Of a stretch of 64,000 nt of DNA, positions 7,879 to 29,141 are shown piece after piece. Below the pieces are notes generated by a model. That model saw only the letters and a list, made by a program, of their open reading frames with translations. It did not search any database and had not been told where the DNA came from. Each line of letters starts with the position of its first letter. The first letter of the stretch is position 1. The stretch spans positions 1-64,000 of the forward strand of contig NZ_JAMSLR010000005.1 in assembly GCF_023806485.1 (NCBI RefSeq). The letters run 5' to 3'. The position numbers and the translations under genes are program-made. This DNA is from Thermalbibacter longus. GTDB lineage: Bacteria; Chloroflexota; Chloroflexia; Thermomicrobiales; Thermomicrobiaceae.

Positions 7879-8148
7879 GGCGCTGGAGCTTCCGGTTCCG
7901 GCCTGGTCGAGTCCGCCCACGTGATGCTGGCCCGCCTGACGCGCGGTTTGGCCTCTCGCCGTACGACCCGGCGTCTGCCGTGACGCCCTTGGCGCTCGAA
8001 CGAGCTGCTGCCGGACGTGCGGCCTTCCATGTTCTCGGACGAGGCGCGCTTCGACAGCATCGTGCCGCACCACCGATCTGCCTCTTGCGAGACTCCCTGT
8101 CGTGACTTATGCTCCGAGACTGCCAAGCGATAGAGCGAGGTGGAGGTC

Positions 8149-11100
8149 GTGGCTGCGGCAGCGCCGTGGAAAGCGTCCTACATCGCGGCGGCATACGCTG
8201 CGGATGGTGTCGTCCGGGTGATCGACGACCGCAGAGAGAGCGACGAGCTGTTCGTCTTCCACTCGCCGCTCATGCGCCGCTTGATCGGCGTCCGGCGGGG
8301 CGTGACGTTTCCCGGTTCACGCGAGCGAGCGACCGCTGAAGAAGTCAGGTTCGCCGGGGCAGTGCTGACGAAGATCGGCCAGCGGGGATACCCCGCTCCC
8401 TGTTCCCTGCGCCTCGAACGCTGGCTCTGGGAGCGGGCGGCGGCGCTCGGGGTGGCAGAAGCGGCCGAGCGTCGGGAGGGCGGGGTCTTGACCTTCCGTG
8501 TCTACGAGCGCGCTGGGACCCTTCGGGCGCGGCTGCTCGCGAGCTTCTTTCCGGAGTTGCTCTTGCCGGAGGATGCTGCGGAGCAGGCTCTGGATCTCGT
8601 CCGTGGGTTCTGCACGGAAGCGGAGGCGTCGGTATTCGACGACCTCGTCGCCCTGCTTCCAGATAAGCGCCTCGGGCTGTTGCTGATCCCGCAGCGGCCG
8701 ATACGCACAATGGTTCCCAACACTGCAGAGATACCGGGGGATCTCGCCGGTGAGCGCGTGGTCGACTTCGCGGTCGAGGTGCCGTGTCTCCAGTCTACCG
8801 GCTCGGTTCCCTGGCACCGGCTCGTCGTCGAGGTCGACGATGGGTCGCACTCCGATGCGGCCCAGGCAACTTACGACGCAAGCCGCGATCAGGCGCTCGC
8901 GAGGTTCGGCTGGAAGACCTACCGGATCCGTCTGGCGGCGAACCCGTCGTCCGAGATCACCCGAATAGCGGACGAGCTAAGGGGGATGATCCCGGCCGAT
9001 ATCCTGCGTTCCGCATGGCAGATGAGAGACGAGTGCGATGCACCGATGCTCGACATGCATCGCAGGCTCGTGTGGCTGCCGATTCTCGAGGCGCAGCTTA
9101 CGACTGCTCTCGGGCAATGGCTGTTGCGGCGCGGCACGGCTTCGCTGCGCGTGTACGCCTCTCGGGAGGGCGAGGGAGTCGCGGTCATCTTGGAGGCCCT
9201 CGGCGAGCTCCTGGACAACCTGGAAGAGCTGTACCAGCTCCCGCCACTGGGGCGTCCCATGCTGGTCGAGCAGCCACAGGAGGCCGACCTCGCATACTTT
9301 CCGGTGCTCAACCACGAGGCGGTAACCCGTCACGCGCACGGTGCACCCGCAGTCCTGCTGCCCATACCGGTCTCCCCCGAGTATCACGATCCGCTCGAAC
9401 CGGTATTGCCGCGCCCCACGCCGCATCTCGACCCTGGTTCGGACGCATTCCGGCGCCCGCTCGAGAGGCTGCTGCAAATCGTGTTTCGATACGTCGCGTT
9501 TCGCCCCGGCCAGCTCCCGATCGTCCACCGGGCGCTTCGCTTGCAGCCGACGGTCGGGCTTCTGCCGACCGCTGCCGGGAAGTCTTTGTGTTATCAGCTT
9601 GCCGGCCTGCTCCAACCGGGGATGACGCTCGTCTGCGAGCCCTTGCGCTCGCTCATGGTCGATCAGGAAGACCACCTCGTGAGCTTCGGGATCCATCGCA
9701 GCGCCGCGATCGTCCCGCTGAGCGAGCAACCGCAGGGATACAATCCCCGAGGCAGGGACGAGATCCTGCGGGCGCTCGCCAACGGAGCGCTCCTGTTTTG
9801 TTTCATTTCTCCCGAGCGATTCCAGATTCCTGACTTCCGCCGGCAACTGCAAGACGCAGTTGCCCGGATCCCGGTCAACTACTTCGTCGTCGACGAGGCA
9901 CACTGCGTGAGCGAGTGGGGACATGATTTCCGGCCTGCCTACCTATCGTTGGGGCGAACCGTGCCCACGGTCTGTCGTGCCCTCTCCGGCTATGTTCCAC
10001 CCTTCGTCGCCTTGACCGGCACGGCGTCCGAAAACGTGCTCGTGGACGTGCTGCGCGAGCTCCAGATCGATGATCCCGGCTCGGTCGTGCGTCCTCAATC
10101 GTTCGACCGGCCTGAACTCGAGTTGAGCATTGTCCGTATCCGGACGGGGGAGCGCGTCGACCGGCTCGTGTCGGTTCTCCGGGAACTGCTGGGCTGGCGC
10201 CCTGGCCAGCCGTTCGATCCGCCGAGCGGCATCGTCTTCTGCTATTTCGTGGGAGGCAAGCTCGGTGTGGCTGAGTTCGAGCGCCAGCTTCGCGCGCGAT
10301 TGCCGGATCTCGTAGACTGGCTCGGCACGTATTCGGGCCGACGGCCCGACGATCGGCTGGCAGCCGATTGGGAGCAGGAGAAGATCCGGATCCAGCGGGC
10401 GTTCGTCGCGAACGAGATTCGGGTGCTCGTCGCGACCCACGCCTTCGGGATGGGTATCGATAAGCCGGATATCCGCTTCACCGTGCATACCATGCTGCCG
10501 CGTTCCCTCGAGGAGTTTTACCAGCAGGCCGGGCGTGCCGGCCGAGACGGGAAGCGGGCGTGCTGCATCATCCTGTTCTGCGATGACCATCCCAGACTCG
10601 CCGATGAGGCGCTCGACCCGGTCAGGACGCCCGCCGACCACTTGCCGCAGAAGCGAGCGATGACCCGCCCAGGCGCGCCGGCCGAGAGTGACGCCGTGCA
10701 GCATCTGTGGTTCGTTTCCCAGGCCTTTCGGGGCAAACAGTTCGATCAAGACACGATCGCCTTCGTGTGGCGCTCCCTCGCCCGTGCTCTCCCTCAGGAC
10801 ACCCGCCAGTTGCTGTCCATCCCCATCCGTTTCACCTTTCTCCTCGACCAAGGTGGGGCGGCTCATCCGGCCTTCGGGCACCAGATCCAGGGCCAGGAGG
10901 ACGCGGCGTCGCTCCTCGAGAAGGCACTGTACCGGCTGACGATGGCTGGGGCGATCGTCGACTACACGAAAGACTGGCAGCGGCAATGCTTCGTCGTCGA
11001 TCTGCGCCGCCGGACGACCGAGGACGTGATCGAGACGTTCCGCAGCTACCTCCTGCGCTATACGACGGAAGGCCAAGCGCGGCGGTACCTGAGCGACATC

Positions 11101-11775
11101 CCAGCAGGGTCGTACGAAGACGTGGTGGAGCATGTCGCTCGACGCATCGTCGCGTTCGTGTACGACCACATCGAGGCGCGCCGGCGCCTGGCGATGCGCC
11201 AGATGCTCGAAGTCGCTCGCGCGGCGACGGCGGTCGACGCCAGCGGAACGCAGAAGTTTCGCGATGAACTGCTGCGGTATCTGGAAGAATCCGAGTACTC
11301 GGATGCGGTGCGATCGCTCAGGGAAGACCTCCCCGATGACTGGCTCGCACTCTTCCGCCGGGCGAGCGCGCCCGACGCCCTCCCCAAGCTGGCTGGCGCA
11401 GTCCGGCGGCACCTCGAGGAACGGCCGTTCCACCCCGGGCTCCTGCTGCTCCGTGGCTTGGTCGAGGTCACTCGCAGCGGTGGCGGCGAATACATCGACA
11501 GCGCGTTCAGGATTCTGGCGCAGGATTACCCGCAGGTCGATCTCGATCGCCTCGCGTGGCAGCTCCTGCACGTCCTGGCAGAGGAAATCGGTTCGGGCAA
11601 TCCTGAGAGGCTCGATGCCGTCATCGAGATGCTCCTGCGGTGTCGCGAGACGCTCGGTTTCGCCCGGCTGTGTTATCAGCTCGCCCCTGAGCACGGATGG
11701 GCACATCTGCGTGCCGTGGTACGGCTCGCTGAAGGGGTGGCAGAGGCGATGAGAGGAGCCTCGGATGTTCGATGA
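8149..11775 (+). CDS. Fusion of a DUF559/Vsr-like nuclease domain to a RecQ-like DNA helicase
   Basis: A protein of about 1208 residues. Residues about 155-285 carry a PD-(D/E)XK-like core: [10 protein letters not shown] (about 203-212), [11 protein letters not shown] (about 226-236), then [21 protein letters not shown], as in DUF559 and Vsr nucleases. Residues about 445-830 form a superfamily 2 helicase of RecQ type: Walker [14 protein letters not shown] (about 470-482), DEAH (about 582), [25 protein letters not shown] and [10 protein letters not shown] (about 792). The usual RecQ zinc cysteines and HRDC domain are absent; about 380 other residues follow. GTG 8149 has GCGAGG eight bases upstream, better than GTG 8140. 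The next gene overlaps its end by 11 bases. Role in repair or anti-phage defence is inferred. Confidence 0.8.
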
Positions 11776-24230: not shown

Positions 24231-25175
24231 ATGGGAAGGAGCTGTGCCATCGAGAGGGGAAATGGAGGACAGCACTCCGGCGAGCACCTGGCCGATCCTG
24301 GGGCGACCGGATCGTTCCTCTCGCTCGTGAGCCGCTACCGGGACAGCGTGGGGCAACGGCGCTTCGTCGGCGAAGACCCGGTGGTGCACCCGCTCCGGGA
24401 TGCTCCCGAGGAGATCGCCGCCGCTGCCATCGCTGCCGAGCGGCTCGGCGGTCTGCTCCGGCTCGACGGCAAGGCGATCAGCCCGGCCGAAGACCTGGCG
24501 GTGGCCGAGCTGGATGCCGGGCTGCGCGCGCTGGCCAACTGGGACGTGCGGCTCGCCCGCTGGCGGCTGGCGATCGCCGCCGAGCATGCCCACCTCCCCG
24601 AGCAGCAGCAGCGGGTGAGCCTGGCGCAGGCGCTCGCTCAGACCGTGCGCGACGTGCTGTACGAATATCCAGGCCAGTCGCGGGTGAAGCCGGAGGCACC
24701 GGTGGTCGCGCTGGGGCCGACGCTGGATCGGTTGCCGAAAGAGGAGCTCGACTTCTACGTCGAGGAAGCGAAACGCCTGGCCGGGCTCTGGCGCCAAGCC
24801 AAGGAGGACGTGCTGCTGTGGACTGGCTGGGCCCTGACGCGAGTCCGGACGATCCTACGCGACGGGGAGCCCGACGCGGCGCTGGCCTGGCTGCTCCGCA
24901 TCTACCGGCGCAATCGCGACCGCTTGACCGGCGATGACTACCTCGAGCGCCTGGTGCGCCGGGCCGAGGCGACCTTTCGGCTCCTCCTACTCGCCGAGGG
25001 CGAAGACGATGCCGAGCTGCGCAAGCTGGCCGAGGACGCCTCGCCGCACGACTTGCTGGTCACGACGGTCGCGATGCTGAGCCAGGCCTGGGACACCGAC
25101 GTGGTGCAGGTGAGCAACCGCTTCGCGCTGGTGCTCTACCAACGCACCGAGCTGAACCCGGAGCGCTCCTCATGA
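24231..25175 (+). CDS. Helical protein of unknown function, first gene of the Dna2-like operon
   Basis: A 314-residue, mainly alpha-helical, Arg/Leu/Glu-rich protein with no signal peptide, membrane helix or known catalytic motif. Dense helices (for example LPKEELDFYVEEAKRLAGLWRQA) suggest a scaffold or binding role. The start is uncertain: ATG 24231 has no good ribosome site, and GTG 24327 would also give an intact core beginning SRYRDSVGQ. Its stop overlaps the start of the nuclease-helicase gene by four bases (ATGA), so the proteins likely act together. Confidence 0.65.
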   Translation: MGRSCAIERGNGGQHSGEHLADPGATGSFLSLVSRYRDSVGQRRFVGEDPVVHPLRDAPEEIAAAAIAAERLGGLLRLDGKAISPAEDLAVAELDAGLRALANWDVRLARWRLAIAAEHAHLPEQQQRVSLAQALAQTVRDVLYEYPGQSRVKPEAPVVALGPTLDRLPKEELDFYVEEAKRLAGLWRQAKEDVLLWTGWALTRVRTILRDGEPDAALAWLLRIYRRNRDRLTGDDYLERLVRRAEATFRLLLLAEGEDDAELRKLAEDASPHDLLVTTVAMLSQAWDTDVVQVSNRFALVLYQRTELNPERSS

Positions 25176-28100
25176 TCGGCGGGGCGACGACCTGGGCGAG
25201 CCAGGAGGCCGAGCGTGCCTGGCAGGAGCTGCACCAGGAGCCAGGTAAGCCGAAGTGGCTCGACGTGCCGATCCTGGTACGGCCAGTGGGCGAGCTGCGA
25301 TCAGGCCGCATCGTGCTCGAGGCGCTGACCGAAGACCGGCAACTGCTCGGCACCTGCGCGGTCTTCAACGGCGAGTGGTACCCGGGTTGCCCCGGATCGA
25401 CGCCCTATTCCCACTACGCGCCGACTCTCTACCGGGTGCTGCTAGCCCGGCAGCGCCGCGAGGAGAACGAGCCGCTCCGCCTCCAGGTCTTGAAGGCGGT
25501 CGCTGCCCAGACGCGCAGCGGGCGACTCTTGCCTGTCCTGCTCAAGTTCATCATCGCGCCGGAGCACACGCTCACCGGCGCGCAGCTCGAGCAGGTCTAC
25601 GGCTGCCCGCTCCAGGTCTTCTACACGCGCTTCGTCGGCGTCAGCTACGACGTGCTCCGCCCGCGAGACGGCGGGGGCGATGTCCGCGGCCGGGCGATCC
25701 ACGAGGGCTACCGTCGCGCAGCGGCCGAGTTCGTCGCCAGCGGCGACCTGGAACGGGCGCGTGCCGAGTACCTGGAGGGGGTGCGCCGCATCTGGATCGA
25801 GTGGCTGACGACGCTCTGCCTCAAGATCAGCGCGCGGCCGATCATGGATCACACACAACCGCTCCAGGTGGTCGACGAGATCCTGAGCTATTGCAGCCAG
25901 CGCTGGGAGGGGCAGTCGCTCCGGCTCTACCTGGAGCGACTCTTCTACGCGCCGTCGCGGGGCATCTCTGGTCGGGCGGATCGGGTCGAGGAGCCGCTCG
26001 GCGGTGGGCCGCTGCGCCTCGTCGAGATCAAGACGCATGGGATAGACGCCGAGCAGGATCCGCAGACCGGCGAGCGCCACCCGGGTGGACTGCAAGCGCT
26101 GGCCTACCGCGAGATCCTGCACAGTTTCGGTGAGGAGAGCGCTGAAGCCGTCGTCGAGGAGATCCAGGGAGCGCGCATCAAGCCGCTGCCGCTGCAGGCT
26201 CACCCGCTGGTCCGTCGCCTCCGGCTGGATCTCTCGACCCGCGACGAGCGCGTCGTCGATCTGATCGCCCAGGCGCGCAACATCGGCTACTGCGTCGCCA
26301 CCGGCCTCTTCACCGGCTACGACCGGTACCTGCTCGACCGGGCCGGTGACGACTGGCGACTGCGCGAGCTGGGCGGCAGCTTCGAGCTCTTGCGGCCCTG
26401 GCCTCCGTGCCAGATCTGTCCGGCGCAGCGCCGGGGAGTCTGCGTCTACGGCACCCGGCGCGCTGGCCCGCGGCTCTACTCGCTCTTCCGCTATGCCCCG
26501 AGCCGGCTCTTCGCCTACTGGGCTTGGTTCCATCGCCAGCTCAAGGCTGAGGAGCGCGCCTCGCGAGAGTTGCTGTTCCACCTCGTCACCACGCCGGCCG
26601 AGACGCTGGAGCAGTCGGAGGGGATCACGATCAGCCGGTTGCGGCTGGCCGAGCAGGCCGGCCTCGTCGCGGTCTTCACCCGCGATGAGCGGATCGAGAC
26701 GCGGATCCGCGAGGACGACCGGGTGCTGGTGACTCCAGAACGGCGCGCGCCGGGCCAGATCTTCTCGGTCGAGGGTACGGTGCAGACCGTGGGCGAGCGC
26801 GAGATCGCTCTCCGGCTCAATGACCGGGTCGATCCCGAGGGAACCTACCGCGTCGACCTGCTCGGCGGGTACGACATGCGCCAGTGGCAGCTCGAAGGTC
26901 TGACCGACTTTCTGGTCTCGGCGATGGCTAGCACCGGCATTCGTGGCCGCAAGGTGCTGGTCGACGAGCTTCCGCGGCTGGCCCGCATCCTGCTCGGTGC
27001 CGAGCGGGCGTCTCCACCGGGCCAGGCTCCAGCGCCGCCAGCGCCCGACCTGAACGCGACCCAGCGGCGCGCGCTGGCGGCCGTGCTGGCGATGGAGCCA
27101 GGAGATCTGCTGCTGATCCAGGGGCCGCCCGGCACCGGGAAAACCTCCCTGATCGCCCACCTGGCACGGGCAGCCCTGGCCAGGCATCTCTTCGACTACG
27201 ACGGCAGGGCCCCGCAGGATCGCCGCCCCGTGCTCGTCCTCACCAATACCCACCGCGCCGCCGACGAGGTCGTGCTCAAGCTACTCGACCGGTTTCCCGA
27301 GGTGGCGCCGTTCGTCATCCGGGTCGGCGGGCGGCGCGCCGACATGGACGAGCGGGTTGCGCGCCAGACCCTGGCCGAGCGCGCCGGCGCGCGCGAGGTG
27401 CTGGGCGAGGCCGATCTGGCCGGGAACGGAGCGGCCGTCCTCTTCCGGCTGATCCGGCGAGCCCAGACCTACCACGACCATGCCGGCATCTTCGTCGGCA
27501 CGCTGGGCTCGGCCGATGCCGCCGAGCTGCGCGGGCTGAGCTTCGAGCTCGTGATCGTCGACGAGGCCGGGCAGGCGACCGAGCCGGCCATGCTGCAGGC
27601 GCTGCGTCACCTCCCGCCCGGCTACGCCGGCCGCCTGGTGCTGGTCGGCGACCACCGCCAGCTTCCGCCGGTGGTCTCGGATGAGCTGGTACCCCCGCCG
27701 GTGCCCGAGGCCTTCCGCCAGCTCGGCCTGCAAGCGGGCGACAGCCTGCGCACTTCGGCCTTCGAGCGGCTGGCGCGCCTCTACCCGCACGCGCTGATCA
27801 CCCTCACCGAGCAGTACCGGATGAACGCGCCGATCTGTAGCCTGGTCAGCGAGACCTTCTATGAGGGACAACTGGTGCCCGGAACCCAGGAGGTGGCGGA
27901 GCGGGCGCTGGCCGGCTGGCTCTCCCGGTTCGGCCTCTCCGTGCCGGCGAGCTCAGTCTGGAGTGGGCCGCCGGTCGTCCTGATCACCACCGAAGCTGAC
28001 CCGGATGCGCGTGACAGCGGGGCGCGCTTCATCGCCGGCCGCTCGCCGGACGAAGCGCGCGACAACCCGCGCGAGGCGACGATCGTCGCCGCGCTGCTCG

Positions 28101-28540
28101 GCGAGCTGATCGGCTCGTTGCCTCCAGACTGGCGCGCGGAGGTCGCACGCGAGATCGGCGTCATCTCGCCCTATCGCCGCCAGAACAACCGGATCCGGCA
28201 GGAGTTGCTCCGGCGTGACCCCGCTCTGGCCGCGGTGCGGGTCGACACGGTCGATCGCTTCCAGGGCGGCGAGCGCGAGGTGATCGTGGTCAGCCTGGTC
28301 AACAGCAACGACGAGGCCGCCATCGGCCGGCTCCACGCCGACTGGCGCCGGATGAACGTCGCGATCTCCCGCGCGCGGCGAGCGCTGGTGATCGTCGGCG
28401 ACCGCTCGACGTTCACCCACGATCCCGGCCGGCCGGAGGAGGACGAGGCCAGACGGTACTACCGGGCGCTCTTCGATGGGATCGAGCGGCTGGCGCGTCA
28501 GGGGCAGGCGCGCGTGCTGGATAGCCGAACGCTGCCCTAA
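25172..28540 (+). CDS. Dna2-like Fe-S nuclease fused to a superfamily 1 helicase
   Basis: An 1122-residue enzyme. After about 140 residues of unknown fold comes a RecB/Cas4-like nuclease: GRADRVEE (about residue 266) and LVEIKTHG (about 283) hold the catalytic Asp and Glu-x-Lys. Its Fe-S cluster ligands are Cys about 145 (YGCPLQVFY) and three in CQICPAQRRGVC (about 413, 416, 424). A UPF1/Dna2-type helicase follows: GPPGTGKT (about 650), DEAGQ (about 797), GDHRQLPPVV, EQYRMN, DTVDRFQGGEREV and NVAISRARRAL. The layout matches eukaryotic Dna2, which trims and unwinds 5' flaps and DNA ends. It is coupled to the genes on either side. Repair or defence role is inferred. Confidence 0.82.
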   Translation: MIGGATTWASQEAERAWQELHQEPGKPKWLDVPILVRPVGELRSGRIVLEALTEDRQLLGTCAVFNGEWYPGCPGSTPYSHYAPTLYRVLLARQRREENEPLRLQVLKAVAAQTRSGRLLPVLLKFIIAPEHTLTGAQLEQVYGCPLQVFYTRFVGVSYDVLRPRDGGGDVRGRAIHEGYRRAAAEFVASGDLERARAEYLEGVRRIWIEWLTTLCLKISARPIMDHTQPLQVVDEILSYCSQRWEGQSLRLYLERLFYAPSRGISGRADRVEEPLGGGPLRLVEIKTHGIDAEQDPQTGERHPGGLQALAYREILHSFGEESAEAVVEEIQGARIKPLPLQAHPLVRRLRLDLSTRDERVVDLIAQARNIGYCVATGLFTGYDRYLLDRAGDDWRLRELGGSFELLRPWPPCQICPAQRRGVCVYGTRRAGPRLYSLFRYAPSRLFAYWAWFHRQLKAEERASRELLFHLVTTPAETLEQSEGITISRLRLAEQAGLVAVFTRDERIETRIREDDRVLVTPERRAPGQIFSVEGTVQTVGEREIALRLNDRVDPEGTYRVDLLGGYDMRQWQLEGLTDFLVSAMASTGIRGRKVLVDELPRLARILLGAERASPPGQAPAPPAPDLNATQRRALAAVLAMEPGDLLLIQGPPGTGKTSLIAHLARAALARHLFDYDGRAPQDRRPVLVLTNTHRAADEVVLKLLDRFPEVAPFVIRVGGRRADMDERVARQTLAERAGAREVLGEADLAGNGAAVLFRLIRRAQTYHDHAGIFVGTLGSADAAELRGLSFELVIVDEAGQATEPAMLQALRHLPPGYAGRLVLVGDHRQLPPVVSDELVPPPVPEAFRQLGLQAGDSLRTSAFERLARLYPHALITLTEQYRMNAPICSLVSETFYEGQLVPGTQEVAERALAGWLSRFGLSVPASSVWSGPPVVLITTEADPDARDSGARFIAGRSPDEARDNPREATIVAALLGELIGSLPPDWRAEVAREIGVISPYRRQNNRIRQELLRRDPALAAVRVDTVDRFQGGEREVIVVSLVNSNDEAAIGRLHADWRRMNVAISRARRALVIVGDRSTFTHDPGRPEEDEARRYYRALFDGIERLARQGQARVLDSRTLP

Positions 28541-28556
28541 GCGCAGGAGGGTGCTA

Positions 28557-29141
28557 ATGGCCGATCCCCAGCAGATCCAGCGGCTCCTGATCGAGATCGG
28601 CGAGGACGTCGCCTGCCGGCACTACCACGAGCCGCGGGCTGGCGTCGACTTCAACCTCCTAGCTGGCCTCGGGCTGCTCACTCCGATCAACACGCGGATC
28701 CCGCCCTGCGAGGCGCACGGCTGCCCGCTGCTCGGACAGTGCGAGCATGAGGCCGACTTCGCGCCCGATTCCAATACGCGCACGCCCAGGAGCAACCGCA
28801 AGTTCCGCCGCGCGCCGAAAGGAGCGGACGTCGCGGCGGACGCCGCTCTGCTGGATCGCCTGGCATCCGAGCACCGGCTCGCCGCGCTGGTGGCCGGCGC
28901 GCTGCGAGGCGGGAAGGCGAGCGTCTTCACCCTGGCCCAGGCGCTCCTCGAAGCCGATCTGGCCCAGGTGGAGGCAGGGGGAGAGACTGCCCCGGCCGTT
29001 CGCCGGCGCGAGCTGGGAGCCTTCCTCCGGCTGGTGGAGGCACTGGGCTGGGTGCAGTTCGAGGACGGCGGCCTTACGCTCCGTGCCCTCCGGTTACCGG
29101 AGCCTCTGATGCCGCCTGCCGGGCCTAGCGAGACGGCGTGA
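28557..29141 (+). CDS. Cys-rich small protein, third gene of the Dna2-like operon
   Basis: A 194-residue protein, start ATG 28557 behind AGGAGG, 16 bases after the helicase stop. The N-terminal third contains four cysteines, one in DVACRHYHE and three in PPCEAHGCPLLGQC, a spacing (C-x4-C-x5-C) that could hold zinc or an Fe-S cluster. A charged linker (RSNRKFRRAPKG) is followed by a helical C-terminal domain with a winged-helix-like pattern (ELGAFLRLVEALGWVQFEDGGLTLRAL). A DNA-binding accessory factor is a fair guess. The family is not recognised. Confidence 0.65.
   Translation: MADPQQIQRLLIEIGEDVACRHYHEPRAGVDFNLLAGLGLLTPINTRIPPCEAHGCPLLGQCEHEADFAPDSNTRTPRSNRKFRRAPKGADVAADAALLDRLASEHRLAALVAGALRGGKASVFTLAQALLEADLAQVEAGGETAPAVRRRELGAFLRLVEALGWVQFEDGGLTLRALRLPEPLMPPAGPSETA

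Follow-up and report, generated by a model that had tools for sequence, protein, structure and literature searches.

A three-gene unit around a DNA2-like helicase-nuclease in Thermomicrobiales, a candidate system for DNA-end resection

The window, a stretch of 64,000 nucleotides of Thermalbibacter longus DNA, carries three genes (here A, B and C) whose central member has the sequence features of a DNA2-like helicase-nuclease. AddAB is the machine that bacteria usually employ to trim broken DNA ends. We put at about even the chances that the A, B and C products form a DNA-end resection complex standing in for AddAB/RecBCD in Thermomicrobium and close relatives. A more elaborate version of this proposal is possible, if doubtful: a three-subunit double-strand-break resection machine, made of a DNA2-type motor-nuclease, a helical scaffold and a subunit that combines metal binding with a winged helix, that would replace AddAB in a thermophilic lineage of Thermomicrobiales.

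Results

The window comes from a genome of the family Thermomicrobiaceae, and its closest named relatives are bacterium HR26 and Thermomicrobiaceae MAGs. The three genes lie head to tail on the forward strand, as follows.

24231..25175 (+): gene A; 314 aa, helical, partly TPR-like; undescribed family, putative scaffold or DNA-binding partner
25172..28540 (+): gene B; 1122 aa; DNA2-like, with a predicted Fe-S RecB-type nuclease, stalk and barrel, and an SF1B (UPF1-type) helicase
25604..26443 (+): nuclease part of B with the putative Fe-S cysteines; invariant columns, and PDDEXK_1 detected by Pfam in 10 of 16 family members
27044..28423 (+): SF1B helicase core of B; AAA_11/AAA_12, alignment with DNA2 and UPF1
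28557..29141 (+): gene C; 194 aa; N-terminal Cys/His cluster and predicted C-terminal winged helix (about residues 106-179)

The overlap of A and B is 4 bases long, and 16 bases separate the B stop codon from the C start; these junctions and the coordinates agree with the initial annotation, and the three genes make up a tightly coupled operon. Purifying selection acts on all of them, the dN/dS ratios within the genus being 0.18-0.26 for A, 0.17-0.22 for B and 0.20-0.44 for C. The arrangement is not due to chance, since the unit is found again in 15 other loci.

Protein B had been described at the outset as a four-cysteine RecB-type Fe-S nuclease joined to a UPF1/Dna2-type helicase, in the domain order of eukaryotic Dna2. 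All the signatures are indeed present, and they are invariant in 16 homologs. In Pfam searches PDDEXK_1 covers residues 137-321, and AAA_11/AAA_12 extend from about 627 to 1078. The invariant cysteines, arranged as in AddB and DNA2, are C145 and C413-x2-C416-x7-C424; the nuclease residues H177, D270, E285-x-K287 and Q308-x3-Y312 are equally conserved, as are the helicase motifs GPPGTGKT (Walker A, 651-658), DE (797-798), QYR (881-883), RFQG (1029-1032) and SRA (1066-1068). The domain order holds as well: DNA2 is the best solved match of the B family profile (203 bits), aligned over mouse DNA2 440-1022, which runs from the stalk across the beta barrel to where the helicase ends (terms of the DNA2 structure paper, PMC4716839). 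UPF1 comes next with 166 bits, in the helicase only. With an N-terminal four-Cys RecB-type nuclease bearing the H/D/ExK/QxxxY residues, and with a stalk and beta barrel preceding an SF1B helicase of the UPF1 type in the profile alignment, B is by its sequence a member of the DNA2-like helicase-nuclease class, and an Fe-S cluster is predicted. The nuclease region alone gave no significant match to solved structures in profile searches, and only its GRxDR...KT core aligned with AddB in a profile-profile comparison (probability 42%). The kinship of the nuclease is therefore drawn from PDDEXK_1 and from a motif layout in common with AddB, namely the same ordered landmarks C...H...GRxDR...(D/E)xKT...Q...Y...CxxCx(5-7)C.

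To judge from sequence searches, the families of A and C are undescribed. Gene A of the window has no Pfam or NCBIfam match and fits no PHROGs model; gene C fits no NCBIfam or PHROGs model; and no member of either protein family has a Pfam match above noise. Against PADLOC, C gave no match and A only AbiEi at E 0.003, which is noise level. The AlphaFold model of A (pLDDT 86) is all-helical save for a short strand pair and includes a TPR-like stretch, in keeping with the unknown helical protein that had been noted to overlap the helicase gene. Its likeness to the helical part of Csm6 (Z 10.8, rmsd 7.2) is ambiguous, as such matches are for helical proteins. The Csm6 fold matches raised the question of a HEPN ribonuclease, an assignment that we rejected: the A family has no invariant R-x4-6-H motif, and Z values below 13 mean little for helical models. 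Residues 1-19 are weakly conserved and weakly modelled, which makes the start codon of A uncertain; the real start may lie further in. In genome G027, gene A (locus L039, 12619-13709, minus strand) is broken over two reading frames, possibly through a frameshift or an assembly error.

The C family has five invariant columns, C20, C51, H54, C56 and C62, all in an N-terminal Cys/His domain that is likely to be a metal site. In the model (pLDDT 87), this small domain precedes the winged helix, which matches known winged helices with Z about 9. Thus the portrayal of C as a Cys-rich protein with a winged-helix-like end stands. C was also considered as a relative of cullins or of PadR/MarR; those matches span the generic winged helix only, their sequence support is negligible, and the assignment was dropped.

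Among 61 genomes of the order Thermomicrobiales, full-length B was found in 15, and A and C in the same 15. In a sixteenth genome, G041, a contig end cuts the unit after A and the initial 60 codons of B. Gene order is conserved as A-B-C, and the two junctions range from -14 to +11 and from -11 to +32 bases. Two genomes are exceptions: in G023, A lies inside another contig and C upstream of B; in G027 it is C that is found within a different contig. All three genes are retained in both despite the split operon, which indicates that they form a unit. The initial annotation had proposed such a self-contained unit, and the partners do accompany the helicase elsewhere; nor is the trio a named family, no PADLOC system fitting it. 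In T. roseum the genes are TRD_RS12340, TRD_RS12345 and TRD_RS12350, annotated as hypothetical, AAA domain-containing and hypothetical in this order, and located on the megaplasmid. A 400-genome sample of the phylum contained no relatives outside the family; the contig scan for relatives used a single query sequence and may miss distant ones outside Chloroflexota. In families f3 and f4 the distribution of the trio is patchy.

AddB-AddA-like pairs, as detected by a PDDEXK_1 search, are confined to genomes without the trio. The pair of G004 matches AddB and AddA models, and its AddB has orthologs in G006, G009, G010, G012, G013 and G015; G017, also devoid of the trio, has an AddA fragment. Within family f1, AddAB thus occurs only in genera g2 and g4 (seven genomes and the G017 fragment), all lacking the trio, and none was found in the 11 trio genomes of this family. 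The same search revealed no other large RecB-type helicase-nuclease in trio genomes G005, G008, G014 and G016, which are 96-99% complete. In AddAB genomes G004 and G012, the corresponding S8 protease-upp-X locus, with the same S8 protease, is present with no trio in between; the X gene beyond this empty site lies about 11 kb downstream of the trio start in trio-bearing G005. The exclusion of trio and AddAB gives a Fisher p of 0.001 by genome in f1, uncorrected for relatedness, of 0.17 over the whole order and of 0.4 by genus (3 versus 2). With so few independent events, one swap may explain the pattern, which may then reflect a single evolutionary event. Both the trio and AddAB orthologs are missing from most f3 genomes, so that each is dispensable in the order.

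Other helicase-nucleases were met in these genomes. An AddB-AddA pair of the sister genus (L090, 3739-10318, plus strand), its genes one base apart, is a counterpart useful for replacement tests. A fusion of PcrA and a RecB nuclease, which stands alone and could resect ends, is encoded by five trio genomes, from g1 and part of g6; the copy at L091 (4546-7470, plus strand) has 974 aa, joins a PcrA-type helicase to a RecB/Cas4-like nuclease and has no gene for a second subunit next to it. Many f2 and f3 genomes have a separate UPF1-type helicase of 1400-1500 aa that weakly matches a RecB-like nuclease close to the N-terminus (L096, 4963-9357, minus strand), another DNA2-like arrangement, devoid of A or C. 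A rule by which each genome would have exactly one of AddAB, the trio and this protein of about 1500 aa was abandoned: genus g2 combines AddAB with the 1500-aa protein, and pieces of the latter accompany the trio in G041 and G057. A dependence on RecQ as in eukaryotic DNA2 was likewise discarded, RecQ presence not tracking the trio across genomes. Elsewhere in the window (8140-11775, plus strand), residues 444-814 of a 1211-aa protein form a helicase core of the RecQ family (251 bits, above the family cut-off); the protein also resembles DpdF, and its layout is not that of a canonical RecQ.

The main lineage of the family has the trio in one stable place, beside upp. This gene lies upstream, on the opposite strand, in g1, g3, g6 and T. 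roseum; it adjoins A directly in all of these except g1, where one gene intervenes. Proteins flanking the trio in the window are an amidase, dCTP deaminase, molybdopterin oxidoreductase, UPRTase, MgtE, an enolase superfamily member and an HDOD/EAL protein; at more distant loci, where a family was recognised, they are amylases, a PLP enzyme, Memo and MutS. The scan of flanking proteins revealed no methyltransferase. Of 72,556 plasmid records, that of the T. roseum megaplasmid alone contains the trio. Viral contigs scanned with A and B yielded no relative of either and the B nuclease had no phage match; a viral origin of the trio was accordingly set aside. PADLOC matches of B are at the helicase level only: MkoA with 280 bits (B 599-1110) and PLuB with 205 bits.

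Discussion

The finding that in family f1 the trio occurs only in genomes without AddAB hints that it serves as a stand-in for this machine. DNA2 and the Geobacillus enzyme Bad, which combine a 5'->3' motor with a single-stranded DNA endonuclease and an Fe-S cluster (PMC7430649), provide the analogy on which a mechanism for B can be proposed. B would load on a broken or frayed DNA end, threading the 5' single strand, and would move 5'->3' by means of its SF1B motor, unwinding the duplex. Its predicted Fe-S nuclease would cut the translocated strand and leave a 3' single-stranded tail for RecA. A and C are natural candidates for partners of B: the putative helical scaffold and the predicted metal-binding, winged-helix protein could be core subunits that bind duplex ends or regulate the nuclease. 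We infer all of this, from the physical complex, its polarity and its resection activity to the substitution for AddAB and the functions of A and C. Should the resection proposal be true, bacteria would be able to run end resection with a eukaryote-style enzyme. A lineage that has a DNA2-like enzyme, no AddAB and two partners that always travel along makes the role of bacterial DNA2-like enzymes addressable.

One could also imagine that the trio is a specialised repair or replication factor, acting on flaps, forks or R-loops beside other resection enzymes, and that lineage sorting produced the AddAB exclusion by coincidence. Flaps and stalled forks are substrates of DNA2 itself (PMC4716839), few independent events underlie the exclusion, many f3 genomes get by with neither the trio nor AddAB orthologs, and the lone PcrA-nuclease coexists with the trio in g1. 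However, AddAB is in no trio genome, and no second large RecB-type helicase-nuclease was found in the four near-complete ones; we consider this alternative unlikely, if worth keeping in mind. An RNA-directed role, with B as a UPF1-like RNA helicase and nuclease and with A and C targeting RNA, would fit the presence of RNA helicases among UPF1-type enzymes and the ambiguous Csm6-like helices of A. Nonetheless, the substrate of RecB-type nucleases is DNA, the best overall match of B is DNA2, and A is devoid of the ribonuclease motif, all of which makes such a role highly improbable.

The initial annotation had left the choice between defence and repair open. Of the two, repair or end processing has come out better supported. 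In an anti-phage or restriction-type system, the nuclease-helicase would destroy invading DNA, and A and C would act as subunits for sensing or specificity. The likeness of the B helicase to the defence helicases MkoA and PLuB speaks for this, as do the patchy occurrence in f3 and f4, the DNA-binding-like winged helix predicted for C and the methyltransferase link of Bad (PMC7430649). But A and C have no PADLOC match beyond noise, the flanks scanned include no methyltransferase, the trio is nearly absent from plasmid records, and neither a phage or viral relative of B nor a viral relative of A was found. Moreover, the variable islands in which the trio might have been expected did not materialise: the loci of three genera (g1, g3 and g6) share synteny next to upp, metabolic genes make up the flanks examined, and the idea of a defence island was given up. 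A defence function thus strikes us as quite improbable.

Among named defence systems, Mokosh pairs the MkoA helicase with phospholipase D, either as a separate partner (MkoB) or in one fused protein. Pfam detects no phospholipase D domain in A, B or C, which places the trio outside Mokosh; MkoA and PLuB are similar to B in the helicase part only, and neither A nor C matches the partner genes required by the systems named in PADLOC 2023. AddAB differs from B in having a UvrD-type SF1A motor and two subunits, against a UPF1-type motor fused to the nuclease. This UvrD-type motor, common to AddAB, AdnAB and RecBCD, is not found in the trio, B being of the AAA_11/AAA_12 type and A and C having no helicase match; sequence searches show A and C to be unrelated to AddAB.

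The resemblance to eukaryotic DNA2 (mouse 5EAW and human) extends over an N-terminal RecB-type nuclease with a predicted Fe-S cluster, stalk, beta barrel, SF1B helicase and similar size. From the nuclease Asp to the Walker Lys there are 387 residues in B and 377 in human DNA2 (D277 and K654, PMC5030094). B differs from DNA2 by its private partners A and C, by the absence of a RecQ link, by an OB domain not seen in B and by a nuclease that profiles do not detect against solved structures. By published description, the closest enzyme is Bad of Geobacillus stearothermophilus, a bacterial fusion, like B, of a four-Cys Fe-S nuclease and an SF1B helicase (PMC7430649). Bacterial DNA2-like enzymes were therefore already known, a precedent that the initial annotation overlooked. 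The gene for Bad neighbours a methyltransferase gene and a restriction-related role was considered for it in the paper on Bad, which also notes that AddAB/RecBCD already take care of resection (PMC7430649); the trio, in contrast, has no methyltransferase among its scanned flanks. Bad is a monomer without described protein partners, and D150 and K815 are 665 residues apart in it (PMC7430649), as against 387 for the corresponding distance in B, a spacing that leaves no room for the large extra central domain of Bad. What is new here is a DNA2-like protein that does without this central domain and is accompanied by two partners of its own, A and C.
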